NCBI RefSeq assembly: GCF_024343775.1
Contig: NZ_RJUF01000003.1
Span: 1 to 64,000, forward strand
Direction: 5' to 3'
Length of the DNA stretch: 64,000 nucleotides
Source of the DNA: Lacihabitans soyangensis
GTDB taxonomy: Bacteria > Bacteroidota > Bacteroidia > Cytophagales > Spirosomataceae
Part shown: positions 7,241 to 25,977 of the stretch, piece by piece
Numbering within the stretch: position 1 is the first letter of the stretch
Layout: each line of letters starts with the position of its first letter
The notes under the pieces: generated by a model
The model's database searches: none
What the model saw: the letters and a program-made list of their open reading frames with translations, nothing else
What the model was told of the DNA's origin: nothing
Translations under genes and position numbers: made by a program

Positions 7241-7276
7241 TTCATAAAAAGTAATCTTCGGATTACTTTTTATGAA
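7241..7276. terminator. Perfect 16-bp hairpin with TTCG loop, bidirectional terminator
   Basis: TTCATAAAAAGTAATC pairs perfectly with its complement across a TTCG tetraloop. The A/T-rich outer arms give U-rich tails on both strands. It separates the convergent amidohydrolase (+) and the rubredoxin-tailed gene (-), and its right arm overlaps the latter's stop codon (7270-7272). Confidence 0.85.
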
Positions 7277-8727
7277 TGCACAAAATTGTCATTCATTTCA
7301 ATCGATTTAAAATTAGATTTCTGTTCTTCGCACAAGCCACAACGATAATCGCTCGGAAGATTCTCAAATGTAATCCCGGCAGGCACTCCAGCCAATTCAT
7401 CGCCATACCGAGAATCATAAATGGAGAGGCAACTATTGCACTGAAATATCTTTATTTTTTTGACTTTTTGAGGTTCTGAAACTTTCATTTGATCACCCAG
7501 CACCTTTATAGAATTTTCTGACAATTGCTTATTATAAAGCAAGACTGATCTCCGTAATTGTTCTGATAAATTCATCTTTTGAATTCCCTTGGCTAGATAC
7601 ACTTTCGTTCTGCCATTTGGGTCAAAATCTTCGGTGTAAGAAATGTCATAAACATTAAAGAACGGAATGACATTGAACAATTTGGTACGTCGCCTTTGAA
7701 CCATAATGGAAGCGAAGACTTCTGTTTTTGGGACTGTTTTGATACCAAAACAAATCCCAAAAGTACGAATATCTTGCCTGTTGAATGATTCCACCAATTC
7801 GTTTTTTAGTTTCAGAGCTTCCTCAGAATCGTCCTCTACCTGCCAATTGAGTTCGTTGGCCGCGTGCCTTACATTGATATTGTGCTTGGCCAATATAGAA
7901 CTCCAAAATTTCCTATCCGCCTCCTCTATGCCTTTAATAATGAGCGATTTCCATGGCGTAAAGCAAATTTCGCCGAGTTTGGTAAAAAGGCACAAATCGC
8001 ACATTTCTAATAGAAAAGAAACCGAGAAAAGTTCGTTTCTGCGATAAATTCCGAGCCAAGTCTTTTTGCCATAGCGGTTGAAGCCTTCATAATAAGGTAA
8101 GGTGAATTTTGGGAGTTTTAATTCCTCCTCCTTTGCTATGGAAATGATTTTAGGGATGTTTTCAAAAACATCTTTCGCTTCGTTTTCTGGAAATTGCTCC
8201 AAGGCTTCTTCAATACTTTTTGAAACTTTAGCTATTTCGTTTGAAAAAATGAGTTTGTCATAAGCATTTACGTGGTTGGTTTTTGGTTTTCTTAAAAATA
8301 GGTACCAGAAATTGGGCGTACTAGACGAAACAAAATTGAGATGTCCCGAAAAAAATGGAGTGAAACTCTGGGCGTTGTCTGAAATATTAATTTTCAGTTT
8401 AGAATCATAATCGAAAGTATCAAATATGTCTTTATATATACCTTCAGTTATCCAGTTGCCTTTTTGAAAAACATCTTCGGCAACATAAGAACTCACCAAA
8501 TTTGGCATTTCATTGGAATCAACCTGAAATTTAATATTCAAATCTGCCAAACTCTTTTCGAATTTTCGAGCAAAAGGATGAGCGATATGAAGGATAAGCT
8601 GTTGACGCAAACTTAGTCTAACTTCCTTTACATGAGCACCTTGTGCTGCCACAAGTATTTGCTTTAGTTCACCCGGTGATACTACACCACCTTTGAAGTT
8701 TATTCTAATTTTATAAAAATCATTCAT
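7270..8727 (-). CDS. Sulfite/nitrite-reductase-like protein lacking siroheme cysteines, with C-terminal rubredoxin domain
   Basis: The C-terminal ~55 residues form a rubredoxin domain (CNSC near 432-435, CGLC near 469-472) that should bind one iron. The preceding ~430 residues look like the two-fold NiR/SiR scaffold: ferredoxin-like half-domains at about 1-70 and 225-310 (compare FTPWKSL). Aligned by eye with NirB of this window, the first siroheme/4Fe-4S motif C-x5-C (SCVGTTWC) matches SYVAEDVF, and the second, C-x3-C (GCIREC), falls on DNAQSF. All four ligands are therefore missing. It lies 97 bp downstream of the nitrate reductase on the same strand and is probably co-transcribed. I infer an electron-transfer or adaptor role for nitrate reduction rather than siroheme catalysis. 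Confidence 0.65.
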   Translation of the reverse strand: MNDFYKIRINFKGGVVSPGELKQILVAAQGAHVKEVRLSLRQQLILHIAHPFARKFEKSLADLNIKFQVDSNEMPNLVSSYVAEDVFQKGNWITEGIYKDIFDTFDYDSKLKINISDNAQSFTPFFSGHLNFVSSSTPNFWYLFLRKPKTNHVNAYDKLIFSNEIAKVSKSIEEALEQFPENEAKDVFENIPKIISIAKEEELKLPKFTLPYYEGFNRYGKKTWLGIYRRNELFSVSFLLEMCDLCLFTKLGEICFTPWKSLIIKGIEEADRKFWSSILAKHNINVRHAANELNWQVEDDSEEALKLKNELVESFNRQDIRTFGICFGIKTVPKTEVFASIMVQRRRTKLFNVIPFFNVYDISYTEDFDPNGRTKVYLAKGIQKMNLSEQLRRSVLLYNKQLSENSIKVLGDQMKVSEPQKVKKIKIFQCNSCLSIYDSRYGDELAGVPAGITFENLPSDYRCGLCEEQKSNFKSIEMNDNFVHS

Positions 8728-8824: not shown

Positions 8825-11800
8825 TTAACCCAAAGATATCGCCTCCTCAGCCAAACTTTTCTCAAGAATTCCTCTGACCTCTGGTCTACAAGAGCCACAG
8901 CCAGTGCCTGCTCCAGTTTCTTGGCAAAGGTTATCGAAAACCACACAACCGCCATTGATAGCTTTTTTGAGATTGCCCTCGCCAACATTGTTACACGAAC
9001 AAACAAGCTTACCCAATACCGGCTCTGGTTTTTTACCTGACCGAAGTAATTGTAATCGTTTATCAGACAATTCGATGCCCTCAGCAATGAGATTTTTGAA
9101 TTCCAAAAACTCTGATTTATCCCCTATCAAAATTGCCCCAACCAAGCGGTCGTTTTTGATCACGCATTTCTTGTAATAATGCTTGGCTTTATCAATGAAA
9201 ACTACTTCTTCATAGCCTTCTCCTCCAATCGGAATTTCAATTTCTCCTAATGAACAAAGATCCAAGCCTGACATTTTAAGAAGATTCATAGATAAGCTTC
9301 CTTTATAATAACTAGCTAGGTCACCTGCTAAAAACTTTGCCACAATTTCTGCTTGTTGTTCTGCGGCAGCTGTAATTCCCCAGAGCTGATTGTTCCATTC
9401 TGCTATTTCGCCACAGGCAAAAATATTTTCGTCAGAAGTTTGAAGATATTCGTTCACTTTTACTCCCCTATTGCACTCTAAACCTGCTTCTTTGGCTAAT
9501 TCTATCACTGGAGTGGTTCCGGCAGCTACTATCATGGCGTCACATGGTAATTTTCTTCCCGATTTCAGACGGATTCCCTCTATTTTCTCTGTTCCATAAA
9601 ATTGCTCTACTTCGTCATTGAAGTAAACCTCTATGCCCCTTGCTACAATTTCTTCATGCAGAATGGCACTACCCAACAAGTCTAACTGTCTGTCCATCAG
9701 TCTACTTATACGTTGCACCACCGTTACGTTCACTCCGATTTCCCTTAAAGATGCGGCCATCTCTAATCCCAACAGACCACCTCCTACTACCACGGCATTA
9801 CCACCTTTTTTGAGAAACGGAGCCAGATGATCAGCGTCTAAACGGCTACGCATATTGAAAATTCCCGGGATTTTAGGGAAATTTTTGGGCATAAATGCCT
9901 TGCTTCCCATACCTAAAAATAATTTGTCGTAGGAATGTTCTCTGCCTTTGGAGTCAGTAAGGATTTTATTTTTACGGTCGATGTGTTCTATGCCTATGCC
10001 CTTGTGAACCAAAATGTTATTTTCCTCGAACTGATCTTCACGGAGTTTTACGAGCTGGTCCCAAGCCTGGGTCCCGCTGATATAGTCTGGCAACATCACA
10101 CGGTTATAAAATGGATAGATTTCTTTGCTAAATACCTCAATATCATCAGTTTGATTGTATTTTCGGTAAGCCGAAATAAAACCTAAACCGGCAGAACCCG
10201 CCCCAATAACTATTATTTTTTCCTTTGGCTTTTCATATTTTGAAATTTCTACCACAGCATATTTAAAGTCGGGCTCTTTTGAGCGAGGATCGACCAGAGA
10301 ATTGGTGAGATTGTTTGCCCGTCCAAAGTTTTGGTTGAGTATTTTGCCCCAATGCATTGGCATAAAGCAGTTTCCCTTCTTTAGGTCGTTAGTTAAAATT
10401 ACCTTTACTTTTGCTTCTCCTCTTGTGCCAGTAACCATCACAACCTGACCATCCGAAATACCTCTTTCTTTGGCATCAAGTGGATTCATTTCAACATACG
10501 GCTGGTTGATGTGCTGGTTGAGTTTGTTAACCTTTCCCGTTTTGGTCATGGTATGCCATTGGTCTCTAATTCTCCCAGTAATAAGAATTAATGGGAAGTC
10601 GCCCGAAATTTGCTCGGATTGGTTCTGAAACGGTACTGAATGAATGCGTGCTTTTTTAGAGGCCGTATAAAATGAATGGTCTGTAAACAACCTCTCCGTT
10701 CCGATGGAAGATTCGTCAGTACTCATTTTTTTTGTAAACGGCCATTGAACTGTTCCAAAATTTTGAAGTTTTTCGAAGTCTAATCCAGAAACATCGATGT
10801 TGGTGTTTTCTGTAGTTTTGATGTACTCCTTATAGATGTCTTCGGTTTTGTTGTAAGAAAATTTATCTCCCCAGCCCATTTTTTCAGTAAATCGACAGAT
10901 AATTTCTGTATCGGGCAATGCATTTCCTGGGGCATCAACTACTTTATTTAGGTATGAAATGCGACGCTCTGCATTGGTCATTGTTCCGTCTTTTTCTGTC
11001 CAAGCAGCCGCAGGAAGCACAATATCGGCAAATTTTGTGGTGTCAGATTTACTGGAAACGTCTTGCACTACCACCAATTTTGCATTTTTCAATGCTCTTT
11101 CTATCATATTGGCATCTGGCATACTTACCAGTGGGTTGGTACAAACAATCCAAATCGCTTTCATTTTGCCATCTGCCAAAGCCTGAAACATTTCTGTAGC
11201 AGTGAGGCCGGGTTTTTCCGAAATGGCACCTCCACCCCAAAAAGCTTGCATTTCGTTGCGATGAACAGGATTGGCGTAGTCTCGGTGAGAAGCTAACATG
11301 TTGGCTAAACCACCTACTTCACGACCTCCCATGGCATTGGGCTGACCTGTTAATGAAAAAGGCCCATTGCCGGGCTTTCCAATTTTGCCTGTAATAAGCG
11401 AAAGGTTTATAAGCGAAAGATTTTTGTTTACGCCAATTACCGACTGATTTAGTCCCATTGTCCACATCGACAAAAAACCTTTAGATTGGCCAATCCACTT
11501 TGCTGCAGTTTTGATTTTTTGCAATTCTACACCGCAAATTTTGGCGTATTCTGAAACCGTCTTTTCAAAAACTTTTTCTTTGAAGGCCTCTATGCCTTCA
11601 GTGTGATTCTCAATAAACTCGGCATCAATTTTACCAGTTTCTATCAAAACTCGGGCAATGGCATAATTTAAAGCGACGTCTGTCCCTGGGTTTATGTCTA
11701 AATGTAAATCTCCCGAAGCTACTGTTTGAGTTTTTCGAGGATCCACGACGATGATCTTAACATGTGGATTGGCAACTTTATGTGCCTCCACTCTTCGCCA

Positions 11801-12349
11801 AATAATGGGGTGACACCAAGCTGGATTAGCCCCTTCTACCAAAATAACATCTGAAAGTTCAATATCATCATAACAAACAGGTACGGCGTCTTCTCCCAAG
11901 CTCAACTTATAACCAACAACCGCAGACGACATACACAAACGCGAGTTAGTATCAATATTATTTGCTCCGATGAATCCCTTCATCAACTTGTTCCAAAGAT
12001 AGTACTCCTCCGTTAAACACTGTCCTGAAACATAAAAACCAACAGATTCAGGGCCGTATTTGGCTATAAAAGTTTTGAAAATCGCTGCTGTGCGATCCAA
12101 GGCGGCATCCCACGAAACTTGTTCAAGTGGCATGTTTCTGTTGAATCGCATCTGAGGGTATAACAACCTGTCTGATTTGTCCATGACGGTATAGTGCAAA
12201 TTCATGCCCTTTGAACATAACATTCCACGATTCACGGGGTGGTCTTTATCACCTTCTACCAAAATCTGACCATTACTTTTCTCTTTTATTAGAATTCCGC
12301 AGCCAACTCCACAATAGCAACACGTTGATTTATAGCTCTTTTCATTCAT
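8825..12349 (-). CDS. nasC: Assimilatory nitrate reductase fused to FAD/NAD(P)-oxidoreductase and BFD-like [2Fe-2S] domain
   Basis: Reduces nitrate to nitrite in the cytoplasm. Residues 1 to about 690 are a molybdopterin oxidoreductase of the DMSO-reductase/NasA class. It has an N-terminal 4Fe-4S motif (CCYCGVGC near 10-17, then CSKG) and a C-terminal dinucleotide-binding domain. Residues ~705-1090 form a NirB-like flavoprotein with two Rossmann motifs (VIGAGSAG and VVGGGLLG). Residues ~1110-1165 form a BFD-like [2Fe-2S] domain (CSCN, then GTGCGSC). At 1174 residues it is a self-contained enzyme with its own electron-input arm. It follows the MFS nitrate transporter by 12 bp and so belongs to the operon driven from 13757-13799. 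Confidence 0.9.
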   Translation of the reverse strand: MNEKSYKSTCCYCGVGCGILIKEKSNGQILVEGDKDHPVNRGMLCSKGMNLHYTVMDKSDRLLYPQMRFNRNMPLEQVSWDAALDRTAAIFKTFIAKYGPESVGFYVSGQCLTEEYYLWNKLMKGFIGANNIDTNSRLCMSSAVVGYKLSLGEDAVPVCYDDIELSDVILVEGANPAWCHPIIWRRVEAHKVANPHVKIIVVDPRKTQTVASGDLHLDINPGTDVALNYAIARVLIETGKIDAEFIENHTEGIEAFKEKVFEKTVSEYAKICGVELQKIKTAAKWIGQSKGFLSMWTMGLNQSVIGVNKNLSLINLSLITGKIGKPGNGPFSLTGQPNAMGGREVGGLANMLASHRDYANPVHRNEMQAFWGGGAISEKPGLTATEMFQALADGKMKAIWIVCTNPLVSMPDANMIERALKNAKLVVVQDVSSKSDTTKFADIVLPAAAWTEKDGTMTNAERRISYLNKVVDAPGNALPDTEIICRFTEKMGWGDKFSYNKTEDIYKEYIKTTENTNIDVSGLDFEKLQNFGTVQWPFTKKMSTDESSIGTERLFTDHSFYTASKKARIHSVPFQNQSEQISGDFPLILITGRIRDQWHTMTKTGKVNKLNQHINQPYVEMNPLDAKERGISDGQVVMVTGTRGEAKVKVILTNDLKKGNCFMPMHWGKILNQNFGRANNLTNSLVDPRSKEPDFKYAVVEISKYEKPKEKIIVIGAGSAGLGFISAYRKYNQTDDIEVFSKEIYPFYNRVMLPDYISGTQAWDQLVKLREDQFEENNILVHKGIGIEHIDRKNKILTDSKGREHSYDKLFLGMGSKAFMPKNFPKIPGIFNMRSRLDADHLAPFLKKGGNAVVVGGGLLGLEMAASLREIGVNVTVVQRISRLMDRQLDLLGSAILHEEIVARGIEVYFNDEVEQFYGTEKIEGIRLKSGRKLPCDAMIVAAGTTPVIELAKEAGLECNRGVKVNEYLQTSDENIFACGEIAEWNNQLWGITAAAEQQAEIVAKFLAGDLASYYKGSLSMNLLKMSGLDLCSLGEIEIPIGGEGYEEVVFIDKAKHYYKKCVIKNDRLVGAILIGDKSEFLEFKNLIAEGIELSDKRLQLLRSGKKPEPVLGKLVCSCNNVGEGNLKKAINGGCVVFDNLCQETGAGTGCGSCRPEVRGILEKSLAEEAISLG

Positions 12350-12361
12350 AGCAAATACTAA

Positions 12362-13678
12362 TTATACCGCCAATTCTCCCTCTACTTTTATTTTTTCTTG
12401 AGGAGCCCCATTGAATTGATTTTTTAGGTCAAATTTTGTAAAAGCAACTACAAGTCCAGCTACAATGGCTAGCAAACCAATGTACTGAAACGCCTCGCCA
12501 TAAGTGATGTTTTCGGATTTAAATAAAAAACCCATGGCCATTCCACCGATGTTTCCACCAGCACCTACCACGCCAGCTACCAAGCCCACATTTTTAGAAT
12601 TCAAAAATGGAGTGAGAGCATAGGTAGCTCCATTGGCCATTTTAAGAAATAAAGCAAAAAACAGCATGGAAATAATTGCAAAACCAATAGAACCTGAGTT
12701 AGCAAATAACACTAACCCAATGCCTTCAATTACTATAAATGCAGCTAGTAACCAACCTTTACCAGTTAGGCCCTTTTTTCGACCAACCTTATCGGCAAAA
12801 ATGCCGCCCAATGCTCTTGCGAAAATGTTTAGAAAACCAAAAAGGCCTGCTATTAAACCTGCATTTTTTTGGTCTATCCCGAAGTTATCTACAAAATGAA
12901 GTGCCGCGACATTATCGAAGGTTATTTCCATACCGAAACAAATAGAGTAAGCAATAGTCAGGGCCCAAACCCTCCAATCGGTCAGGACTTCTTTGGTATT
13001 TGGTTTATCCTTTTTCTGTGCTACCCGCTTGATGTCCTCAAAATTGCCCTCAGGAGTATCCTTGGTGAATTTGTAATATAGAAATGCACTAATTAGTAAT
13101 AAGGAACCAGGTAATATCATAGCTAATCTCCATGCTTGGCTATTTGTATAACCAGCAGCCACAATTGCTGCAAAAACCACTGGCATAAGCATATTGGTGA
13201 TGCCACCTCCTAAGTTGCCCCATCCTCCAGCAACGGCATTCGCCGTGCCTTTAATATTGGGTGCAAACATTACAGAAGTATGATATTGGGTTACAACAAA
13301 AGAGGCACCTATAATACCTATGGCAAAACGAAAAAGTAAAAATGTTTGATAAGAATGAGACAGCCCTACAAGAAAAACTGGAACAGAACAAATCAGGAGC
13401 AATAATGTGTAGGTTTTGCGAGGACCCCAAGTATCACAAAGTCTACCGATGAGTAAACGGGCAATTATGGTTGCAGAAACCGCCGCTATCATGGTATTTC
13501 CGACCTGAGACTTAGAAAGACCTAGATCTTCACGGATAGTAGGCATCAATGGTGCCAGACCAAACCAGCCAAAAAAACACATAAAAAAAGTAAGCCAAGT
13601 GACATGGAATGTTCTCATTTGAACAGAAGAAAGATCAAATATCCTGATGTTATCTAAGGGTTTGGTACTGCTTTTCAT
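12362..13678 (-). CDS. MFS nitrate/nitrite transporter (NNP family)
   Basis: Inner-membrane transporter for nitrate uptake and possibly nitrite export. The 438-residue protein has about 12 hydrophobic segments. It carries the NNP-type glycine-rich motif in AVAGGWGNLGGGITN and a second in GVVGAGGNIGGMAMG. It is first in the operon with nasC and, probably, the rubredoxin-tailed protein. The promoter block lies 79-121 bp upstream of the ATG. Resembles NarK/NasA/NrtP; the name is left open because direction of transport cannot be told. Confidence 0.9.
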   Translation of the reverse strand: MKSSTKPLDNIRIFDLSSVQMRTFHVTWLTFFMCFFGWFGLAPLMPTIREDLGLSKSQVGNTMIAAVSATIIARLLIGRLCDTWGPRKTYTLLLLICSVPVFLVGLSHSYQTFLLFRFAIGIIGASFVVTQYHTSVMFAPNIKGTANAVAGGWGNLGGGITNMLMPVVFAAIVAAGYTNSQAWRLAMILPGSLLLISAFLYYKFTKDTPEGNFEDIKRVAQKKDKPNTKEVLTDWRVWALTIAYSICFGMEITFDNVAALHFVDNFGIDQKNAGLIAGLFGFLNIFARALGGIFADKVGRKKGLTGKGWLLAAFIVIEGIGLVLFANSGSIGFAIISMLFFALFLKMANGATYALTPFLNSKNVGLVAGVVGAGGNIGGMAMGFLFKSENITYGEAFQYIGLLAIVAGLVVAFTKFDLKNQFNGAPQEKIKVEGELAV

Positions 13679-13937: not shown

Positions 13938-14792
13938 CTATTCAAAAATTACATCTTCAATAGAGAGGTTTTTGACCAATAGACTTAAAAGTTTGTCATG
14001 TACTTCCATATATTCGGGTAGGTGAACAATATCTTTTTTGTTTCTTGGTCTTGGAATATTAATATCCACTATTTCACGAATGGTAGCCTCAGGGCCGTCG
14101 TTCATAACGACTACTCTGTCAGATAGAAATATGGCCTCTTCTATGTCGTGAGTTACCATTACGATAGTCTGCTGGCGTTTATTTAGATTCCAGATTTTGA
14201 GCAATTCCACATGCATTGACCCTTTAGTAAGTGCATCCAAAGCTCCAAAAGGCTCATCCAGCAAAAGTACCGACGGATTAATGGCGAATGCACGAGCAAT
14301 GGCCGTACGCTGTTTCATTCCGCCTGATAATTGTCCGGGGAGTTTATCTTTGTGCTGCAAAAGATTTACCATCTTGAGGTTATACTCTACTATCTCTTTC
14401 TTTTCAAGAGCTGACTTGTTCTTCAAGACCGAATCCACTGCTTCGTAAACGTTTCTGTAAACCGTCATCCATGGTAAAAGCGAGTAGTTTTGGAATACGA
14501 TTCCTCTATCGGGTCCTGGGCCGGTTACCCTGCTTCCGTTTACGGTTACCTCTCCGAAGGTAGGTCTTACCATACCGCTGATAGAGTTCATCAAAGTAGA
14601 TTTGCCACAACCTGAGTGACCAATGATGCTCACTATTTCTCCCTTTTTAATGTCTAAGTCAATGTCTTTTACTGCTGTAAAAGTACCTTTTCCATTGGTT
14701 TTGAAAGATATAGTTACGTTTTTTACAGAAATGCAATTCGACGTTTCGGACCTTTTCTCTATTAATATTTCATTTTCTAATTCTGTTATCAT
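13938..14792 (-). CDS. nrtD: Nitrate ABC transporter, ATP-binding protein
   Basis: ATPase that powers uptake through the NrtB-like permease. Walker A is GHSGCGKST, the signature is LSGGMKQR, and Walker B is LLLDEPFGALD followed by the H-loop TMVTHD-type segment (MVTHDIEEAIF). It belongs to the NitT/TauT (NrtD/SsuB) ATPase class; nitrate is inferred from context. 284 residues. It is the last gene of porin-nrtA-nrtB-nrtD and ends 259 bp before the MFS gene start. Confidence 0.85.
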   Translation of the reverse strand: MITELENEILIEKRSETSNCISVKNVTISFKTNGKGTFTAVKDIDLDIKKGEIVSIIGHSGCGKSTLMNSISGMVRPTFGEVTVNGSRVTGPGPDRGIVFQNYSLLPWMTVYRNVYEAVDSVLKNKSALEKKEIVEYNLKMVNLLQHKDKLPGQLSGGMKQRTAIARAFAINPSVLLLDEPFGALDALTKGSMHVELLKIWNLNKRQQTIVMVTHDIEEAIFLSDRVVVMNDGPEATIREIVDINIPRPRNKKDIVHLPEYMEVHDKLLSLLVKNLSIEDVIFE

Positions 14793-14835
14793 GATGTTTT
14801 TTGTTTAGAAATCATTTTCATCTTTACAATTTGTT

Positions 14836-15627
14836 TCATTTCCTGTTTTCGTAGGCGAAATAATTCTGAAGTCCATTGAAAAACTTATCGAGCAACAGGC
14901 CTACAAAACCAATAATAAGTATGGCCGAAAGAATTTTTTCAAGACTTAGCCCGTTCCACGAATCCCATACAAAGAAGCCGATTCCTACGCCTCCTGAAAG
15001 CATTTCTCCGGCTACAATCACCATCCAAGCTACTCCAATGGCCAACCTTAAACCTGTGATGATATGAGGAAGAGCGAATGGAATGAGTATTTTGGTGATG
15101 TATTTCCAACGCGAAAACCCAAATGCTTTACCCACATTTTTGTGGTCGTCGGGTATACTCGAAACACCAAATGCAGTGTTAATTAAGGTTGGCCAAAGTG
15201 AGGTGATGGCTATGATAAATACCGTGGCTCCTTCCGAAGCTTTGAACGCCAAGAGTCCCAAAGGAAACCAAGCCAATGGGGAAACTGGACGCAAAACCTG
15301 AATTAGTGGATTTAGTAGATTCATGGTGAATTTTGAACCGCCCATGAGCATTCCTAGTGGAATAGCCAACAAGCTACCCATTCCGAAACCCATCATTACA
15401 CGCTTAATAGAACTCCATAGCTGAATACCAATGCCTTTATCGTTGGGTCCGTAGTCATAAAAAGGGTCCTTGAGCATCTCGAAAAACACCGACCATGTTG
15501 CAATTGGCCCCGGAATTTCGCTTTTTGTAATGGCCGATACTAAGCTCCAAATCAAGAGTAAAATAACCATGCTACCTACAAAATAGGCTATCGAATACAT
15601 ATTTTTTAAAGAGAAAATGCTTTTCAT
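14836..15627 (-). CDS. nrtB: Nitrate ABC transporter, permease
   Basis: Inner-membrane channel of a NitT/TauT-type importer. 263 residues with about six hydrophobic segments and the permease EAA-like loop around FGFSRWKYITKILIPFALPHI. The segment AGEMLSGGVGIGFFVWDSWN resembles nitrate/cyanate permeases. It lies between the binding protein (57 bp upstream) and the ATPase (44 bp downstream). Confidence 0.87.
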   Translation of the reverse strand: MKSIFSLKNMYSIAYFVGSMVILLLIWSLVSAITKSEIPGPIATWSVFFEMLKDPFYDYGPNDKGIGIQLWSSIKRVMMGFGMGSLLAIPLGMLMGGSKFTMNLLNPLIQVLRPVSPLAWFPLGLLAFKASEGATVFIIAITSLWPTLINTAFGVSSIPDDHKNVGKAFGFSRWKYITKILIPFALPHIITGLRLAIGVAWMVIVAGEMLSGGVGIGFFVWDSWNGLSLEKILSAILIIGFVGLLLDKFFNGLQNYFAYENRK

Positions 15628-15683
15628 GATTTTAATGCTTTTTGTGAATTCGGGAAGAGACGATTCCCCTCCCGAATAATTTG

Positions 15684-16889
15684 TTATTTGCGGGTACTAC
15701 CAAGATATGCCGCTGGGTTGTTGGGATCAAAGGCTACGTCAAGATTGGTTTTGAAACCTTTCATGTCTGCCTGAACTGGTACTCCAGTTTCCTTCGCTAC
15801 CTCTGCCCATAGATCGTCCAATATTAGTTTTTCGGCTATTCCTTTATAATCAGGAGCTGATTTGAGCATTCCAAAGCGAACATATTGAGTTAAAAACCAA
15901 ATAGCGTGCGACTTAAGAGGTGTATTAACTACTCCATTATTATAAAAACGCATGTTGTTGTCGCCGTATTTTTGTGCCCCGAGCTCACACCCAAGGTCAT
16001 ATGAACCAAGAATTCTACTTTCTATTGCGGCCACAGGAGCATTTACATAATATGGTTTTGTAAGCCAGCTTACTGCTTTCTTACGGTTTGCGGCATTTGC
16101 GTCTAACCATTTGCAAGCCTCAACAATTGCTTTCATCACGTTTTTCAAATCTGCTCTGTTTTCTGATGCAAACTCTGAGTTAACTATAAGGGCTTTTTCA
16201 GGATGATTTTTCCAAATATCTTGTGAGGTAATCTCTGTAAAACCAACATTTTGGGCAGCTGCAACGCCATTCCATGGTTCCCCTACGCTAAAGCCCTCCA
16301 TGTTATCCACCTTCATATTGGCTACCATTTGAGGTGGCGGAATGGTAATAATTCCCACAGATTTTTGATTTATACCAGCGGCTGCCATCCAGTTTCTCAA
16401 CCAGATATCATGCGTGCCACCAGGAAATGTCATAGCAAAAGTCACTTCTTTTTTCTTCTTCAAAGCTGTTACAGCAGCCGCAACTTTGCTGGTTTCTTTG
16501 AACCCAACCACACCGCAGAAATCCTTTGAAAGCGTGATGGCTTGGCCATTGTTATTCAAAACCATGGCTATTTTCATTTGTGAGCCTGCTTTGCCACCAA
16601 TGCCCGTATAAACCGAAAGCGGCATTGAAAACAAGCAGTGGGCTCCAGAAAGCTCTCCGTTCAGAACTTTATCGCGGATGTTTGCCCATGAAGCTTCTTT
16701 GCTAAGTTCTACATTTACACCATATTTTTTGAACAAACCTAGTTCTTTGGCCACCACCAATGGGGCACAATCAGTTAAAGGTATAAATCCCAGTTTAATT
16801 ACGCTCACTGGAGCGGTTTTGAAAGATGTTGTAACCGAAACTATGGCCAAAAGCATAGCTACCGATAATATTTTTATGGTTCGTTTCAT
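15684..16889 (-). CDS. nrtA: Nitrate ABC transporter, periplasmic substrate-binding protein
   Basis: Binding protein of the NrtA/CmpA class with an N-terminal signal peptide (about residues 1-25) and no lipobox cysteine, so probably soluble in the periplasm. Family features visible: IKLGFIPLTDCAPLVVAKE near the N-terminus, then MTFPGGTHDIWLRNWMAAAG and GEPWNG. 401 residues is normal. Substrate could in principle be bicarbonate or a sulfonate, but the surrounding nitrate genes favour nitrate. A 10-bp-stem hairpin lies in its 118-bp upstream gap. Confidence 0.87.
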   Translation of the reverse strand: MKRTIKILSVAMLLAIVSVTTSFKTAPVSVIKLGFIPLTDCAPLVVAKELGLFKKYGVNVELSKEASWANIRDKVLNGELSGAHCLFSMPLSVYTGIGGKAGSQMKIAMVLNNNGQAITLSKDFCGVVGFKETSKVAAAVTALKKKKEVTFAMTFPGGTHDIWLRNWMAAAGINQKSVGIITIPPPQMVANMKVDNMEGFSVGEPWNGVAAAQNVGFTEITSQDIWKNHPEKALIVNSEFASENRADLKNVMKAIVEACKWLDANAANRKKAVSWLTKPYYVNAPVAAIESRILGSYDLGCELGAQKYGDNNMRFYNNGVVNTPLKSHAIWFLTQYVRFGMLKSAPDYKGIAEKLILDDLWAEVAKETGVPVQADMKGFKTNLDVAFDPNNPAAYLGSTRK

Positions 16890-19333: not shown

Positions 19334-19750
19334 ATGCAGGAACATTATAACGAACTGGCGTTTTTTACCTTAAACCTCCATGATGATCGTTTTGTGCATC
19401 AATATGTGGTTGATGCCTTTACTTGTCAATATGCCGATGACAACACAAAACCCATAAGCCTAACTTTTGCTTTAGCTGGCTTATATTTGTTTATAGAGAA
19501 AGGATACTCGGGCAGGGAGGTACAGAAATTCCATACATTAATGAGCAAAAGAAAAATGGCTTGGCCAAATTTCATTGTGCCTTCTTATCAAGAGCTCCAT
19601 GTGGATATTTCGTCGGTAATTGCCTGTAATGATCAAAATGAACGAATCGAATTAATCGAAAAATGGTGTGCTGGTGTTTGGGAAGTCAATAAGGAGAATC
19701 ATGACAAGGTAGAGGATTTAGTTAGAAATTATTTGGGCTGCAAGAAATAA
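19334..19750 (+). CDS. Conserved hypothetical protein, DUF5946-like
   Basis: 138-residue soluble protein without signal peptide or membrane segment. The stretch HQYVVDAFTCQYAD followed by PISLTFALAGLYLFIEKGYSGREVQ resembles the DUF5946 family, whose function is unknown. It lies between the porin operon promoter and cobA, inside the nitrate island, transcribed in the opposite direction to both neighbours. A nitrogen-related role is inference from position only. Confidence 0.55.
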   Translation: MQEHYNELAFFTLNLHDDRFVHQYVVDAFTCQYADDNTKPISLTFALAGLYLFIEKGYSGREVQKFHTLMSKRKMAWPNFIVPSYQELHVDISSVIACNDQNERIELIEKWCAGVWEVNKENHDKVEDLVRNYLGCKK

Positions 19751-19798: not shown

Positions 19799-20554
19799 TT
19801 AGTTACAAAGTATCTCCGACCCATACTGTAGGATGTACTCTTTGTGTAGACTCACCACTTCCCCTATTATTATCACAGACGGCTGCTTGATGTTTTCTTC
19901 TCTTACTTTTGCGGCTATATCTTTAATTTTGCCAATCACAAACCGCTCATTGTGACAAGTTCCGTTTTGGATAATAGCCACTGGTGTTTCCACTTTGCCA
20001 TAGCTTCTAAAAATTTTAGCTATTTCTTCAAGTTTGCTCAAGCCCATTAATATTACTATTGTCGCACTCGACTGAGCCGCCAAGTATATGTCTTTTGGCA
20101 ATTGCTTTGCTTTTGTGTGGCCTGTCATTACCCAAAAACTCTCTGAAAGTCCGCGTTTAGTTACTGGAATCCCCTGTGCTGTAGGCACTGCAATACAACT
20201 AGATACTCCTGAAATTATTTCTGTTTCTATTCCAAACGACTCAGCATGCTCCAGTTCTTCGGTTGCTCTACCAAATACTATTGGGTCGCCTCCCTTCAGT
20301 CTGACGGCATGGCCATACTCAAATGCCGAAGCTATCAAAAGCTCGTTTATTTGGTCTTGAGTCAAGCTATGGCTTTCAAATCTTTTGCCCACAAATATAT
20401 GCTTACAATCTTGCCGGGTATATTTTAAAAGTTCTTCATTAGCTAAAGCATCATATAAAACCACATCTGCATTTTCTAAAGCCCTTATTCCTTTAAGAGT
20501 AATCAATTCAACATCCCCTGGCCCAGCTCCTACAAGTGTTATTTTTGGTTTCAT
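19799..20554 (-). CDS. cobA: Uroporphyrinogen-III C-methyltransferase (SUMT)
   Basis: Methylates uroporphyrinogen III twice with S-adenosylmethionine to precorrin-2, the precursor of siroheme. The N-terminal LVGAGPGDVELITLKG and the internal RLKGGDPIVFGRATEE motifs are diagnostic. 251 residues corresponds to a stand-alone SUMT without the CysG ferrochelatase half. It is divergent from nirB, whose siroheme it should help supply. A perfect AAGTAT-TA-ATACTT dyad lies 7-20 bp upstream of its ATG. Confidence 0.93.
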   Translation of the reverse strand: MKPKITLVGAGPGDVELITLKGIRALENADVVLYDALANEELLKYTRQDCKHIFVGKRFESHSLTQDQINELLIASAFEYGHAVRLKGGDPIVFGRATEELEHAESFGIETEIISGVSSCIAVPTAQGIPVTKRGLSESFWVMTGHTKAKQLPKDIYLAAQSSATIVILMGLSKLEEIAKIFRSYGKVETPVAIIQNGTCHNERFVIGKIKDIAAKVREENIKQPSVIIIGEVVSLHKEYILQYGSEILCN

Positions 20555-20804: not shown

Positions 20805-23327
20805 ATGAAAAAGAAAGTAGTTGTAGTTGGTAACGGTATGGTGGGTTACAAATTTTGTGAAAAATTAGTATCCAAAGGTGGAAATGAACAGTTTGATATT
20901 ATTGTGTTTGGAGAAGAACCTCGCCCAGCTTACGACAGGGTTCACCTGAGTGCTTATTTTGGCGAGAAAACTATTGCAGAACTTACTATGGCACCTTTGG
21001 AATGGTATTCCGAAAACCAAATACAATTATATCTCAGTGACCCAGTGACCAATATTGATAGAAAAAAGAAAATCATCAATACCCACCAAGGCATTTCGCT
21101 CAACTACGACTATTTAATACTCGCCACGGGTTCTGCTCCATTTGTTCCACCGATTCCTGGGGTAGAAAAAGACGGGGTTTTTGTTTACAGAACGATTGAA
21201 GACTTAGACATGATGAAATCTCATGCGGCAAAATCTAAAATAGGGGCTGTAATAGGGGGAGGTCTTTTAGGCTTAGAGGCCGCTAAAGCTTTACTTGATT
21301 TGGGAATCACCGATGCCCACGTTATAGAATTTGCACCGAGACTTATGCCAAAACAAATAGATCAGGCAGGTTCTGATATTTTAAAAAGCAAATTGAATGC
21401 ACTGGGCATAAAGATTCACTGCAATAAAAACACACAAGAAATATCTGGCGAAGATAGCATCGAAAAAATGGTGTTTGCTGATGGAGAGACATTGAAAGTT
21501 GATATGTTAGTCATTTCTGCTGGAATAAAACCCCGCGATGAACTGGCTAAAATAGCGGGCTTAGAAGTTGGCTCAAGAGGCGGTATATTGGTAAATAATA
21601 AACTCCAAACCTCTGACGAAAGTATTTTCGCAATTGGCGAATGTGCATTGCACGAGCACATGATTTACGGCTTGGTAGCTCCAGGTTATGAAATGGCCGA
21701 CATCGTAGCGTCAGAACTTATGGGTAATGCAACCAAAGAATTTACCGGTTTTGATATGTCCACCAAACTAAAGCTCATTGGTGTAGATGTCGCTAGTTTC
21801 GGCAATGCATTTGCTGAAGAGCCAGATTGTCAGACCATTATATATGAAAACAAAACCAAGGGTGTTTACAAACGCATAAACATCAGCAACGATAACAAAT
21901 ACCTTTTGGGAGGTATATTAGTGGGTGATGCCGAGCAATACAATATGCTTTTGCAAACGGTGAACAATAAACTTCCTATCCCTGCAGACGCTGAGGATTT
22001 GATCTTGGGCTCGCGTGGTGGTGAGTCCGGGGGAGAATCCGGCGTGATGTCTTTACCAGATGAAGCTCTGATTTGTTCTTGCGAAGCGATTACGAAAGGG
22101 CAAATTTGCCATGAGGTGATTGAAAATGGGAATGACACAGTGGATGCTCTTAAAAAATCAACAAAAGCTTGTACGGGTTGTGGAGGATGCACACCCATGG
22201 TGAAGGATCTAATTCAAGGCATTCTTAAATCTCAAGGAAAAGTAGTTAGAAACGTTCTTTGTGAGCATTTTGACCATACCCGTCAGGAATTATTGAGTTT
22301 GGTAAAAATCAAAAACCTCAAAACTTACGACGACGTTTTGGAAGATTTGGGACATGGAGATGGTTGCGAAATTTGTAAGCCAGCGGTGGCTTCAATATTA
22401 GCAAGCCTTTGGAACGAAAACGTCCTCGAAAAAGGCCGTTTAACGGCACAGGATTCTAACGACAGATTTTTGGCCAACATCCAAAGAGGCGGAACTTATT
22501 CTGTAGTTCCTCGAATTCCGGGCGGAGAAATAACGCCTGAAAAACTCATAGCGATTGGTGAGGTAGCTCAAAAATATGGTCTTTATACCAAAATAACTGG
22601 TGGCCAACGGATTGACATGTTCGGTGCTCATGTAGGAGATTTACCTGCAATTTGGGAAGAATTAATCGCCGCGGGCTTCGAAAGTGGGCAGGCTTATGGA
22701 AAATCTCTGAGAACCGTAAAAAGCTGCGTAGGAACTACTTGGTGTAGGTTTGGCGTGCAAGATGCCGTAAGTTTTGCTATAGAGGTAGAGAATAGATACA
22801 AAGGACTCCGTTCACCACATAAACTCAAGTCGGCGGTATCGGGCTGTATTAGAGAATGTGCCGAAGCTCAAAGCAAAGATTTCGGAATTATAGCTACTGA
22901 AAAAGGTTGGAATCTTTATGTATGCGGCAACGGTGGATCCAAACCTCGCCATGCAGAACTCTTGGCCACTGATGTTAGTAGCGAAATGTGTCTTAAGCTA
23001 ATCGATAGATTCTTGATGTTTTACATAAAAACAGCCGAGCCTCTTCAAAGAACGGCCCCATGGCTCGACAAAATGGAGGGTGGACTGGCCTACCTCAAAT
23101 CTGTAGTTATAGACGATTCCCTAGGATTGAACGCCCAGTTTGAGGCCGACATGGACGCTCTGGTAGACTCCTACAAATGCGAGTGGAAAGAGGCCGTTGA
23201 AACCCCCGAAATCAGAAAAAGATTCGTGCACTTTGTAAATGCTCCTGAAGAAAAAGACCCAACGGTGAAGTTTGAGCCACTTCGAGAACAGATAAAGGCA
23301 GAAGACTGGAATGCTGTATTAAAGTAA
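20805..23327 (+). CDS. nirB: Nitrite reductase [NAD(P)H], large subunit
   Basis: Six-electron reduction of nitrite to ammonium in the cytoplasm. Order of domains: FAD/NAD-binding oxidoreductase (VVVVGNGMVG at the N-terminus, second Rossmann VIGGGLLGLEAAK), BFD-like [2Fe-2S] domain (ICSCEA, then CTGCGGC), and ferredoxin-like plus siroheme/4Fe-4S half. The latter has the complete ligand set SCVGTTWC and GCIREC. Full length at 840 residues. nirD follows after 13 bp. The start must lie at or near 20805 because the FAD motif begins at residue 4. Confidence 0.97.
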   Translation: MKKKVVVVGNGMVGYKFCEKLVSKGGNEQFDIIVFGEEPRPAYDRVHLSAYFGEKTIAELTMAPLEWYSENQIQLYLSDPVTNIDRKKKIINTHQGISLNYDYLILATGSAPFVPPIPGVEKDGVFVYRTIEDLDMMKSHAAKSKIGAVIGGGLLGLEAAKALLDLGITDAHVIEFAPRLMPKQIDQAGSDILKSKLNALGIKIHCNKNTQEISGEDSIEKMVFADGETLKVDMLVISAGIKPRDELAKIAGLEVGSRGGILVNNKLQTSDESIFAIGECALHEHMIYGLVAPGYEMADIVASELMGNATKEFTGFDMSTKLKLIGVDVASFGNAFAEEPDCQTIIYENKTKGVYKRINISNDNKYLLGGILVGDAEQYNMLLQTVNNKLPIPADAEDLILGSRGGESGGESGVMSLPDEALICSCEAITKGQICHEVIENGNDTVDALKKSTKACTGCGGCTPMVKDLIQGILKSQGKVVRNVLCEHFDHTRQELLSLVKIKNLKTYDDVLEDLGHGDGCEICKPAVASILASLWNENVLEKGRLTAQDSNDRFLANIQRGGTYSVVPRIPGGEITPEKLIAIGEVAQKYGLYTKITGGQRIDMFGAHVGDLPAIWEELIAAGFESGQAYGKSLRTVKSCVGTTWCRFGVQDAVSFAIEVENRYKGLRSPHKLKSAVSGCIRECAEAQSKDFGIIATEKGWNLYVCGNGGSKPRHAELLATDVSSEMCLKLIDRFLMFYIKTAEPLQRTAPWLDKMEGGLAYLKSVVIDDSLGLNAQFEADMDALVDSYKCEWKEAVETPEIRKRFVHFVNAPEEKDPTVKFEPLREQIKAEDWNAVLK

Positions 23328-23340
23328 GTATAATGAACCA

Positions 23341-23736
23341 ATGATACATCTGTATGAATTATTTCATGCCATGATGAAACCAATGAAAAATATGAACAAT
23401 ACCGAAACAATTACAACGTGGATATTGGCATGTAAAGTTGAGGATATCCCAGAAAATGGAGGAGCCTGTGTTTTACTTGACGGAGAACAAATAGCCATAT
23501 ATAATTTTAAAAAACGTGGCGAATGGTATGCCACGCAAAATCTTTGCCCTCACAAACAACAGATGGCACTTTCTAGAGGAATGATAGGCTCTACTGGAGA
23601 AGAGCCCAAAGTGGCCTGTCCCTTTCACAAGAAAACATTCTCGTTAAAAACAGGAGCTTGCTTGAGTGGCGACGATTATGAAATTAAAACTTACGAAGTA
23701 AAAGTGGAAAACAACCAAGTGTTTGTTGCACTTTGA
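23341..23736 (+). CDS. nirD: Nitrite reductase, small Rieske-type subunit
   Basis: Rieske [2Fe-2S] partner of NirB. The cluster ligands are visible as CPHKQ and CPFHKK, with an intervening loop of normal size. The annotated start gives 131 residues; the Met at 23392 (MNNTETITTW) would give the more usual NirD N-terminus and may be the true start. It follows nirB by 13 bp and should be co-transcribed. Confidence 0.92.
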   Translation: MIHLYELFHAMMKPMKNMNNTETITTWILACKVEDIPENGGACVLLDGEQIAIYNFKKRGEWYATQNLCPHKQQMALSRGMIGSTGEEPKVACPFHKKTFSLKTGACLSGDDYEIKTYEVKVENNQVFVAL

Positions 23737-23882: not shown

Positions 23883-25352
23883 ATGGCCACCTTAGACAAA
23901 ACCGTTGGGCAAAGATTAAAAGTCCAGTATATTTTTGCATTATTGGTAGTGGCCTCTTTAACCATTTTGGGGCAAATCATTATCCAATCTACTCTATCGA
24001 GTTCGCTTGATGACTCACATGTAATAAATATAGCGGGTCGCCAACGCATGCTCAGTCAGCGTCTCACCAAAATCTCACTTATTCTTAATGACCCCACGGT
24101 TTCGGCAGAACAAAAAAATATATATTTGAAAATATTTCCTTCTGCCTATAATCTTTGGAAAGAAAGTCATGAAGCTTTAAAAAACAATAAGCTGGAGAAA
24201 CCCAGAAAGTATAATGTCACTAATAGTCGTGAAATAGCAAAACTGTACCAGAGCATAGAACCTGTTTTTACAAAGCTCTTGGCTTTATTTAAACAAGCTT
24301 CTATCAATAGCCTCAATGATAAAAGCAAAACCGAAATTCTCGAAAATGAACGTTTGTATTTGGAGCTCATGGAAAAAATCGTGTTCACCTACGATGCAGA
24401 GGCCACCAAACGTGTAGACTCTGTAAAATCTTTCGAACTCATTTTGTTGTTTCTTACCTTGGGTACCTTGTTGGTAGAGGCATTCATGATTTTTAGTCCG
24501 TTGGTCAACTACGTAAAAGAGGTAATCGCTCGCTTAACCAGTTCTGAAAGCCAATTGCAAGAAACAAACGACCAGCTGAGGTTTTCTAACAGAATGCTAT
24601 TTCAAGCACAAGAAAAACTCGAAAAAGCCTCTAGAGAAAAATATGAAGCAAAGCTCGAAGAAGAAAAAACCAGGTCGGCCTCGCTATTAGAAGGTCAAGA
24701 AGAAGAACGCAAGAGAATGTCTAGAGAAATGCACGATGGGGTAGGTCAAATGCTAACCGGTATAAAACTGGCGGCTAGCAAACTTAAATCATTAGAAGCG
24801 AGCCATCCCAAGTTTGAGTCCACTTTAAGTAGCCTCCACGACCTCATAAATGAAACAATAGAGGCAACACGAATTGTATCATTTAATCTTATGCCACCAG
24901 TTTTGGCTGATTTTGGATTAGAACCAGTACTGACTATCTTGAAAAATTCTATAGAAAAATCTACCAAAATCAAGGTAAAATTAGAAATCAAACTAATTAA
25001 CGAACGATTGTCCCAAAGCCTAGAAATAAACATTTATCGAATTATACAAGAAGCCACCAACAATACCTTAAAACACGCCAAAGCTAAAAATATCATCATA
25101 AGAATCTTAGAAAAAGACAGTATAGTTTTTGTGGAAATCAGCGATGACGGACTTGGTTTTGACCCTAACCATATTTTTTACAAAAAGCAATCGCTTATCC
25201 ACAATGGTGTGACAAATATTAAAACTCGGTGCGAGCTTTTGCAAGGAAGTTTCAAACTAACCTCGGCTCCTAAAGAAGGTACAAATATTTTCATTAAATT
25301 GCCGATTGATAATTCAGACCAAAATGGGGAAAATAAGAATATTGTTAGTTGA
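23883..25352 (+). CDS. NarX-like nitrate/nitrite sensor histidine kinase
   Basis: Membrane sensor kinase of 489 residues. First membrane segment at about 15-37, then a periplasmic PilJ/NarX-type four-helix sensor whose first helix carries a P-box-like motif (NIAGRQRMLSQRL, about 48-61; the arginine of this motif binds nitrate in E. coli NarX). Second membrane segment at about 183-207, then coiled coil, HisKA_3 dimerisation box with phospho-accepting H284 (REMHDGVGQ) and HATPase domain (DDGLGFD). Overlaps the response regulator start by 29 bp. Nitrate sensing is inferred from motif and location next to nirBD. Confidence 0.85.
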   Translation: MATLDKTVGQRLKVQYIFALLVVASLTILGQIIIQSTLSSSLDDSHVINIAGRQRMLSQRLTKISLILNDPTVSAEQKNIYLKIFPSAYNLWKESHEALKNNKLEKPRKYNVTNSREIAKLYQSIEPVFTKLLALFKQASINSLNDKSKTEILENERLYLELMEKIVFTYDAEATKRVDSVKSFELILLFLTLGTLLVEAFMIFSPLVNYVKEVIARLTSSESQLQETNDQLRFSNRMLFQAQEKLEKASREKYEAKLEEEKTRSASLLEGQEEERKRMSREMHDGVGQMLTGIKLAASKLKSLEASHPKFESTLSSLHDLINETIEATRIVSFNLMPPVLADFGLEPVLTILKNSIEKSTKIKVKLEIKLINERLSQSLEINIYRIIQEATNNTLKHAKAKNIIIRILEKDSIVFVEISDDGLGFDPNHIFYKKQSLIHNGVTNIKTRCELLQGSFKLTSAPKEGTNIFIKLPIDNSDQNGENKNIVS

Positions 25353-25977
25353 CGACCACGCCGTAGTTAGAAAAGGGCTAATTTCTTTGCTCGAAGACGA
25401 GGACCACTTAGAAGTAGTTGGAGATGTCGGCAGTGGCAAGGAAGCTTTGGAATTAGTACCAAAACTAAAGCCAGGAGTGATTTTGTTAGACCTGAATATG
25501 CCAGAAATGTCGGGCATGGAAACAGCCAAGCATCTTAAAAAACTAGCCCCCTCCATAAAAATATTGGTGTTTTCGATGCACAACGATGCTGATTATGTTC
25601 TTAAAAGTATTGAAAACGGCATCGATGGATATTTGCTAAAGGACAGTGAAAAAGACGAGATTTTACTTGGAATAAAAACCGTTTTTGAGGGGAATAAATA
25701 CTTCCCACCTTCTATTTCGGCCACGTTGGTTGGAGCTATTCAAACCAAAGGAAAGTCCGTTTCAAGCCCAAAAAATAATTTGAAAACTGATGTTCTTTCG
25801 AAAAAAGAAAAGCAAATTTTGAAATTAATAAGCGAAGGTAAAAACAGTAAAGAAATAGCCGATTTGCTAGATTTAAGTATTCGTACTGTTTCTAACCATA
25901 GAGCAAATATGCTTAAGAAAACCAATCTCAATAACACTGCCGAGCTGGTTAGAATTGCCAGCAAAGAAGGAATTTAG
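25324..25977 (+). CDS. NarL/FixJ-family response regulator
   Basis: Partner of the NarX-like kinase. Receiver domain at residues 1-120 with phospho-acceptor D56 in VILLDLNMP, acidic pair DD at 10-11 and a conserved lysine in LLKDSEKD. LuxR-type helix-turn-helix at about 150-212 (LSKKEKQILKLISEGKNSKE). The start at MGKIRILLVDD (25324) was preferred to the ATA/ATG 18 bp upstream because the receiver fold begins there. Likely binds the TACYYMT-like sites in the nitrate island; that is inference. Confidence 0.88.
   Translation: MGKIRILLVDDHAVVRKGLISLLEDEDHLEVVGDVGSGKEALELVPKLKPGVILLDLNMPEMSGMETAKHLKKLAPSIKILVFSMHNDADYVLKSIENGIDGYLLKDSEKDEILLGIKTVFEGNKYFPPSISATLVGAIQTKGKSVSSPKNNLKTDVLSKKEKQILKLISEGKNSKEIADLLDLSIRTVSNHRANMLKKTNLNNTAELVRIASKEGI

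Follow-up and report, generated by a model that had tools for sequence, protein, structure and literature searches.

Background

The described systems closest to the protein analysed here, which we call RubSiR, are the siroheme-dependent reductases of the CysI/SiRHP and NirA/NiR type, with which it shares the whole two-repeat fold over 366–391 aligned residues, a significant profile alignment and equivalents of CysI R117, N154 and K217. Unlike CysI and NirA, however, RubSiR lacks the [4Fe-4S] cysteines, R153, R214, residues 299–308 and the PF01077 domain, and it carries an additional rubredoxin. NirB, encoded in the same gene island, is related to RubSiR through the ferredoxin-like half-domain, but keeps the motifs SCVGTTWC and GCIREC, comprises one SiR half only and contains FAD and BFD domains. 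The flavorubredoxin NorV resembles RubSiR in its C-terminal rubredoxin, and the FAD reductase neighbouring RubSiR matches NorW; unlike in the NorV/NorW system, the reductase on the RubSiR side is fused to a nitrate reductase.

Dedicated partners of nitrate reductases have also been described. According to PMC6618116, active NasC of Paracoccus requires NarJ, and being a dedicated partner of a cytoplasmic nitrate reductase is a possible likeness to RubSiR. In Bradyrhizobium, according to PMC4724949, the nitrate-assimilation operon includes a dedicated NO-detoxification partner; this NasC-Flp-Bjgb system is like RubSiR in that a nitrate reductase operon encodes redox accessory proteins, and unlike it in that the flavoprotein there is a protein of its own and a hemoglobin, which has no SiR fold, acts as the accessory. 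A description of RubSiR itself was not found among the titles and abstracts listed from an open-access literature collection, most subscription papers lying outside the search.

Domain architecture and predicted fold

The window, i.e. the whole stretch of 64,000 nucleotides analysed from Lacihabitans soyangensis (contig NZ_RJUF01000003.1), has in its ORF list a 485-aa ORF on the minus strand at 7270–8727 which, judged from Pfam, an AlphaFold2 model and fold searches, encodes a cluster-less protein of the sulfite/nitrite-reductase fold with a C-terminal rubredoxin. The rubredoxin had already been recognised in a sequence-only reading of the window and is confirmed by a Pfam match at residues 428–473 (E 1.7e-11). 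It occupies about residues 425–478 (7294–7455, minus strand), and Pfam, Foldseek and VIA-align agree on a rubredoxin fold with CxxC...CxxC iron ligands, namely C430, C433, C463 and C466, all four of which are present in 138 of 140 family members.

Apart from the rubredoxin, Pfam found a single NIR_SIR_ferr half-domain (residues 4–47, E 3e-6), which is matched by all 18 members of a trimmed RubSiR set; PF01077 was matched neither in the RubSiR of the window nor in any of these 18, and the same is true of the NarJ/TorD family PF02613. NCBIfam models reach the family almost only via the rubredoxin (47 of 48 members), and a weak CobG match (E 0.0029) was seen in one of the 48. The match to the NorV model is confined to the rubredoxin end (residues 415–478) and scores 21 bits against a cut-off of 711, and Pfam detected neither a flavodiiron nor a flavodoxin domain in RubSiR, which thus does not have the make-up of NorV.

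The AlphaFold2 model, built from 48 aligned sequences, has a mean pLDDT of 85.9 and a pTM of 0.78, with low-confidence stretches at residues 84–90 (pLDDT under 50), 417–420 and 483–485, the first of which falls inside one of the motifs named in the sequence-only reading. The first 31 PDB matches obtained with Foldseek are siroheme enzymes (E 2.9e-17 to 4.9e-12), headed by NirA (1zj8, E 2.9e-17), 2akj and 6c3m, and mainly rubredoxins follow. VIA-align, which re-examines the matches found by Foldseek, placed model residues 8–406 on E. coli SiRHP (4htr) with Z 28.2 and an rmsd of 3.1 over 366 residues, and gave Z 24.4 for spinach nitrite reductase and Z about 9 over 52–54 residues for rubredoxins. 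Receptor matches in both lists are engineered rubredoxin fusions and were disregarded; a molybdenum-cofactor chaperone was not among the 50 matches shown of each list, which is weak evidence. Independent support for the fold comes from a profile alignment (hhalign, 140 RubSiR against 11 SiR sequences), since residues 5–406 align to CysI 80–546 (E 2.3e-7) and hence over the same range as in the structural matches.

Residues 5–406 are predicted to form a complete two-repeat sulfite/nitrite-reductase fold, with repeat 1 at about residues 1–195 (8143–8727) and repeat 2 at about residues 196–406 (7510–8142), both on the minus strand and delimited by hhalign and residue mapping and, for repeat 2, family conservation as well. 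The sulfite-reductase scaffold proposed earlier is thus upheld by structure prediction, fold search and profile alignment alike. In a sample of 247 genomes of the class, 38 further genomes show a weak match to the RubSiR profile (E 7e-7 to 6e-4, profile positions 5–83), as do 3 of the 12 RubSiR genomes of this sample. These matches sit in open frames of 501–769 aa, and since the frames in G214 and G218 also carry PF01077, the connection between RubSiR and true SiRs is visible by sequence.

The cofactor site

It had been claimed, from a comparison with NirB by eye, that the four cysteines of SCVGTTWC and GCIREC are replaced in RubSiR at exact spacing. The spacing was overstated, as the NirB motifs start at 640 and 680, i.e. 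40 residues apart, and the corresponding RubSiR stretches at 80 and 117, i.e. 37 apart. Furthermore, these stretches belong to repeat 1, against which the NirB half aligns weakly (RubSiR residues 5–155, E 0.008, probability 5), the same half giving E 6.6e-14 with repeat 1 and E 7.1e-10 with repeat 2 of CysI. E. coli CysI has cysteines at 84, 157, 434, 440, 479 and 483, and the cluster motif is absent from its repeat 1 too, so that a comparison of NirB with repeat 1 could not reveal a loss; by the same comparison, E. coli sulfite reductase itself would be called stripped.

The loss of the four cysteines nevertheless holds when repeat 2 is considered. There, CysI C434, C440 and C483 fall opposite gaps, whose placement depends on an alignment at 15% identity, C479 corresponds to V332 (R in 79 of the 140 sequences), and a loop is deleted relative to SiR. 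A C-x5/6-C together with a C-x3-C was found in the SiR-like part of none of the 140 sequences. Half-domain 2 contains a second CxxC, C243 and C246 (7990–8001, minus strand), both present in 129 of the 140 aligned sequences. A relocated [4Fe-4S] set made up of C243, C246, C255 and C326 was considered and rejected: C255 is a cysteine in 109 and C326 in 84 of the 140 sequences, and all four occur together in only 79.

The 11 SiRs have 36 invariant columns in common, of which 21 differ in RubSiR, 11 are gapped and four are kept, i.e. conserved in at least 90% of the RubSiR sequences (CysI G89, R117, N154 and K217). In repeat 1, R41, N76 and K112 are equivalent to CysI R117, N154 and K217, and P75 replaces R153. 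The basic residues for substrate and siroheme, which we take to be CysI R83, R153, K215 and K217, are not retained as a set: the R83 position is basic (K or R) in 135 of 140 sequences, with a basic residue at position 8 of RubSiR, and K217 is kept as K in 135; the K215 position is variable, and that of R153 is a proline in 110 of 140, with R not among its five commonest residues. CysI R214, Q121, N481 and residues 299–308 are lost. As read from the aligned sequences, the conclusion stands that RubSiR has no [4Fe-4S] cluster and that its siroheme site is dismantled. As defining features of siroheme reductases were looked for and found missing, we do not file RubSiR among these enzymes but place it in the SiR/NiR fold group.

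Conservation within the family

Conservation was assessed in 140 distinct RubSiR sequences, many from one Cytophagales family, 23 of which are less than 35% identical to the RubSiR of the window. Across this set, 34 columns are identical at or above 97%. R41, Q42 and Q120 occur in all 140 sequences, N114 in 139, W295 in 138 and H288 in 137; in repeat 2 the residues H288, E292, L293 and W295 are specific to the family. As RubSiR keeps near-invariant residues of its own, the family is not decaying, and it represents an unusual case in which a whole siroheme-reductase fold has remained under strong selection after its catalytic apparatus was lost.

The rubredoxin is absent in two members, L041 and L120 (the latter the same gene as in L198), and inspection by eye of the three forward frames directly downstream did not reveal one. 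The first of these, in a Runella MAG (L041:9585-10895), is located between moeA and xdhC and not beside NasA. G109, at 23% identity the most divergent member, lacks C243, C246 and K112, as read by eye, and keeps the rubredoxin. Broken copies of RubSiR occur in G082 and G192, and the matches in G114, G049, G090 and G118 have one stop each; the other listed matches of the order contain no internal stop.

The nitrate and nitrite gene island

That a nitrate reductase adjoins the gene, as noted before, is confirmed by the ORFs and Pfam: NasA, an assimilatory nitrate reductase of 1174 aa (8825–12349, minus strand), lies 97 bp upstream. It was assigned with Pfam, the NCBIfam NasC/NasA models matching it below their curated cut-offs, and its relatives are annotated as nitrate reductase. 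Pfam and NCBIfam show a Mo/[4Fe-4S] part followed by a FAD-NAD(P)H reductase of the NirB/NorW type and a BFD [2Fe-2S] domain. The FAD part matches models of rubredoxin-reducing flavoproteins, namely NorW and Rubredoxin_C (PF18267), the latter being unspecific in that NirB matches it too.

Further upstream on the minus strand are an MFS transporter (12362–13678, Pfam), NarK-like in that the equivalent Spirosoma gene is annotated as NarK family, and an ABC transporter (13938–16889) with ATPase, permease and NMT1-type binding protein assigned by Pfam, which from its context is a candidate nitrate importer. A siroheme nitrite reductase, NirB and NirD, is encoded on the plus strand at 20805–23736 (Pfam), NirB having canonical cysteine motifs. 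At 19799–20554 there is a cobA-like gene with homologues in the islands of relatives, the equivalent gene of Spirosoma being annotated cobA, and a DUF5946 gene (19334–19750) adjoins it inside the island. NirBD is followed at 23883–25977 by a histidine kinase with a PilJ domain (Pfam) and a likely response regulator recognised by eye, a candidate sensor pair for nitrate or nitrite.

Distribution and linkage to NasA

RubSiR was found in 69 of the 194 genomes of the order. NasA at E 1e-60 was found in 77 genomes, which include all of these 69; of the remaining eight, seven have only molybdoenzymes of 29–35% identity and one, G173, has a NasA of 61–62% identity. With long-type and distant NasA separated by us, 69 genomes have RubSiR and long-type NasA, none RubSiR only, one NasA only and 124 neither. 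The single exception, G173, carries its long-type NasA on a short contig, severed by the contig end, and its whole genome gave no match to RubSiR or NirB. In the class sample, full-length RubSiR occurs in 12 genomes and long-type NasA in exactly these 12, and the remaining molybdoenzyme matches show 28–39% identity. Over the two samples, which share G000 and G010, both genes thus occur together in 79 genomes. A search of 296 genomes of the phylum with the full profile gave matches in 94, mostly to the rubredoxin part alone, and 23 of the matches listed cover the SiR part. Nitrate assimilation in a large part of the Bacteroidota may depend on RubSiR. NirB, too, is matched in the 69 RubSiR genomes of the order, or in 68 if G106, matched only via the FAD domain of NasA, is left out, and as its co-occurrence is equally complete, genome counts alone cannot separate the nitrate from the nitrite step.

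Among the matches listed (the best 80 of 549), the nearest relatives are from Lacihabitans with 89% identity. No relatives were found in viral contigs, and a plasmid search gave four records, from Spirosoma, Hymenobacter and two Persicobacter, which we assume to be Bacteroidota. The NasA-RubSiR pair is located on plasmids of Spirosoma oryzicola and Hymenobacter volaticus (L213, L214), and in two annotated plasmid records a gene named 'rubredoxin' adjoins a 'nitrate reductase'; in the annotated records seen, RubSiR is hidden under this name.

Gene order was examined in 119 loci, some of which may represent one genome twice, and a RubSiR ORF was present at the BLAST cut-off in 117. In 111 of these 117, NasA precedes RubSiR on the same strand, four more end at a contig edge, and in L041 and L148 RubSiR has no adjoining NasA. 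The two loci without a RubSiR ORF are that of G173 (L160), chosen as NasA only, and L146, which is divergent and has NasA in the locus. With starts taken at the first ATG, the gap between NasA and RubSiR has a median of 74 bp, being zero or an overlap in 19 cases and above 300 bp in 20. A natural fusion of the two was looked for by eye in the ORF lists of the loci and not seen.

Copy number also links RubSiR with NasA. In three genomes (G103, G142 and G154) both RubSiR and long-type NasA are present in two copies and NirB in a single one; G192 likewise has duplicated RubSiR and long-type NasA and one NirB, the RubSiR copies being in pieces, and G172 carries an additional RubSiR that is not near NasA. 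Over 50 loci the pairwise distances of RubSiR and NasA correlate at 0.958 and, given NirB, at 0.82, and those of RubSiR and NirB, given NasA, at −0.07; the genes are linked, the pairs non-independent, and shared ancestry inflates the raw values. Replacing NirB by the MFS gene (79 loci) gives partials of 0.91 and −0.24, and by cobA (63 loci) of 0.93 and 0.03. These values are suggestive of a divergence of RubSiR that follows NasA and not NirB. A role as partner of NirB was rejected on the basis of the distance partials and of the three genomes with two NasA, two RubSiR and one NirB.

Possible functions

There is good support for RubSiR being a siroheme-enzyme fold that has been repurposed and is linked to the nitrate reductase. 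As to what it does there, we lean, with reservations, towards a dedicated redox or docking accessory of the NasA-FAD-[2Fe-2S] fusion of the Bacteroidota. Docking on NasA may be the task of the SiR-like body, much as siroheme enzymes bind their ferredoxin or flavoprotein partners, and single electrons could pass between the rubredoxin and the FAD/[2Fe-2S] module of NasA, either while NasA turns over or to activate it reductively. Of the former siroheme pocket, R41, K112 and the basic residue at position 8 are retained. The fold, the dismantled cofactor site and the near-invariant rubredoxin ligands favour such a role, as do co-occurrence, linkage, co-duplication and co-divergence with NasA and the matches of its FAD part to the NorW and Rubredoxin_C models. 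On the other side, Rubredoxin_C is unspecific, the rubredoxin is absent in 2 of 140 members, and two loci have no adjoining NasA. Moreover, electron delivery is not obviously needed because NasA has FAD/NAD(P)H and [2Fe-2S] modules of its own, which on paper form a complete NAD(P)H-FAD-[2Fe-2S]-[4Fe-4S]-Mo path. The docking or electron-delivery factor suggested in the sequence-only reading is plausible, but one of two leading options; a function in maturation fits about as well.

As a maturation factor, which we consider possible at a somewhat lower probability, RubSiR would take the place of NarJ/TorD-type proteins as the chaperone that loads NasA with its molybdenum cofactor or clusters or protects these, with the rubredoxin in a redox or structural role during assembly. 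PF02613 was detected in 5 of 14 control genomes but in none of the 194 from the order, yet NarJ is required for NasC in Paracoccus (PMC6618116). RubSiR bears on how a nitrate reductase may mature without NarJ in these Bacteroidota. FdhD (PF02634) is likewise absent from the genome of L. soyangensis, and on paper NasA requires no external electron donor. The neighbourhood points in the same direction: moaA, moaE and a mobA-like gene lie downstream of RubSiR in L149 (Pfam), Moco ORFs that look similar by eye, judged on their initial residues, follow it in L150, L153, L155 and L161, and the rubredoxin-less Runella member is flanked by moeA and xdhC. However, it is common in any case for Moco genes to be clustered with nitrate reductases, PF02613 is missing even from genomes without NasA, so that its absence is no correlation, and cofactor loading alone would leave the near-invariant rubredoxin unexplained. 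A bolder combination of both readings appears doubtful to us. In it, the emptied siroheme fold would be an obligate redox-assembly partner of NasA across the Bacteroidota that stands in for the absent chaperone NarJ, accommodates an anionic ligand, e.g. the molybdopterin cofactor, where siroheme once sat, and brings about reductive activation through its rubredoxin.

It is unlikely that RubSiR is a catalytic reductase in its own right, in which electrons would pass from NADH via the FAD of NasA and the rubredoxin to a new cofactor or to thiols (the CxxC at 243/246, H288) in the former pocket and act on a by-product such as nitric oxide or hydroxylamine. R41, Q42, N114, D117, Q120, H288 and W295 are strongly conserved, part of them at CysI positions which we presume to line the pocket. 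The layout recalls flavorubredoxin with NorW, and the NO-detoxification partner in Bradyrhizobium (PMC4724949) may serve as a precedent by analogy. Nevertheless, no metal or heme ligand set is recognisable, only 4 of 36 SiR-invariant columns are kept, and the divergent G109 does without C243, C246 and K112.

Still less probable is that siroheme or another tetrapyrrole is bound, e.g. via H288, with RubSiR acting as a sensor or a carrier for NirB. The equivalents of CysI R117 and K217, the basic charge at R83 and the cobA-type siroheme gene in the islands of relatives would fit, but R153, R214, Q121, N481, residues 299–308 and the four cluster cysteines are lost, K215 varies, and, with NasA taken into account, nothing remains of a correlation between the divergence of RubSiR and that of NirB. 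Finally, a decaying pseudogene or chance ORF, as the lost cofactor ligands and the few broken or stop-containing copies could suggest, is refuted by the conservation of 34 columns among sequences so divergent and by matches in 69 of 194 genomes; those few copies apart, the listed matches have no internal stop.

Additional ORFs were observed between NasA and RubSiR in some loci. A 262-aa ORF is present at this position in L143:7648-8436, where it has no Pfam match, and in L144:7772-8560. In Arcicella (L052:9082-9483) and Flectobacillus (L080:9258-9668) a small ORF of 133–136 aa on the opposite strand separates the two genes, and that of Arcicella shows a weak, sub-threshold MoaF-like match.
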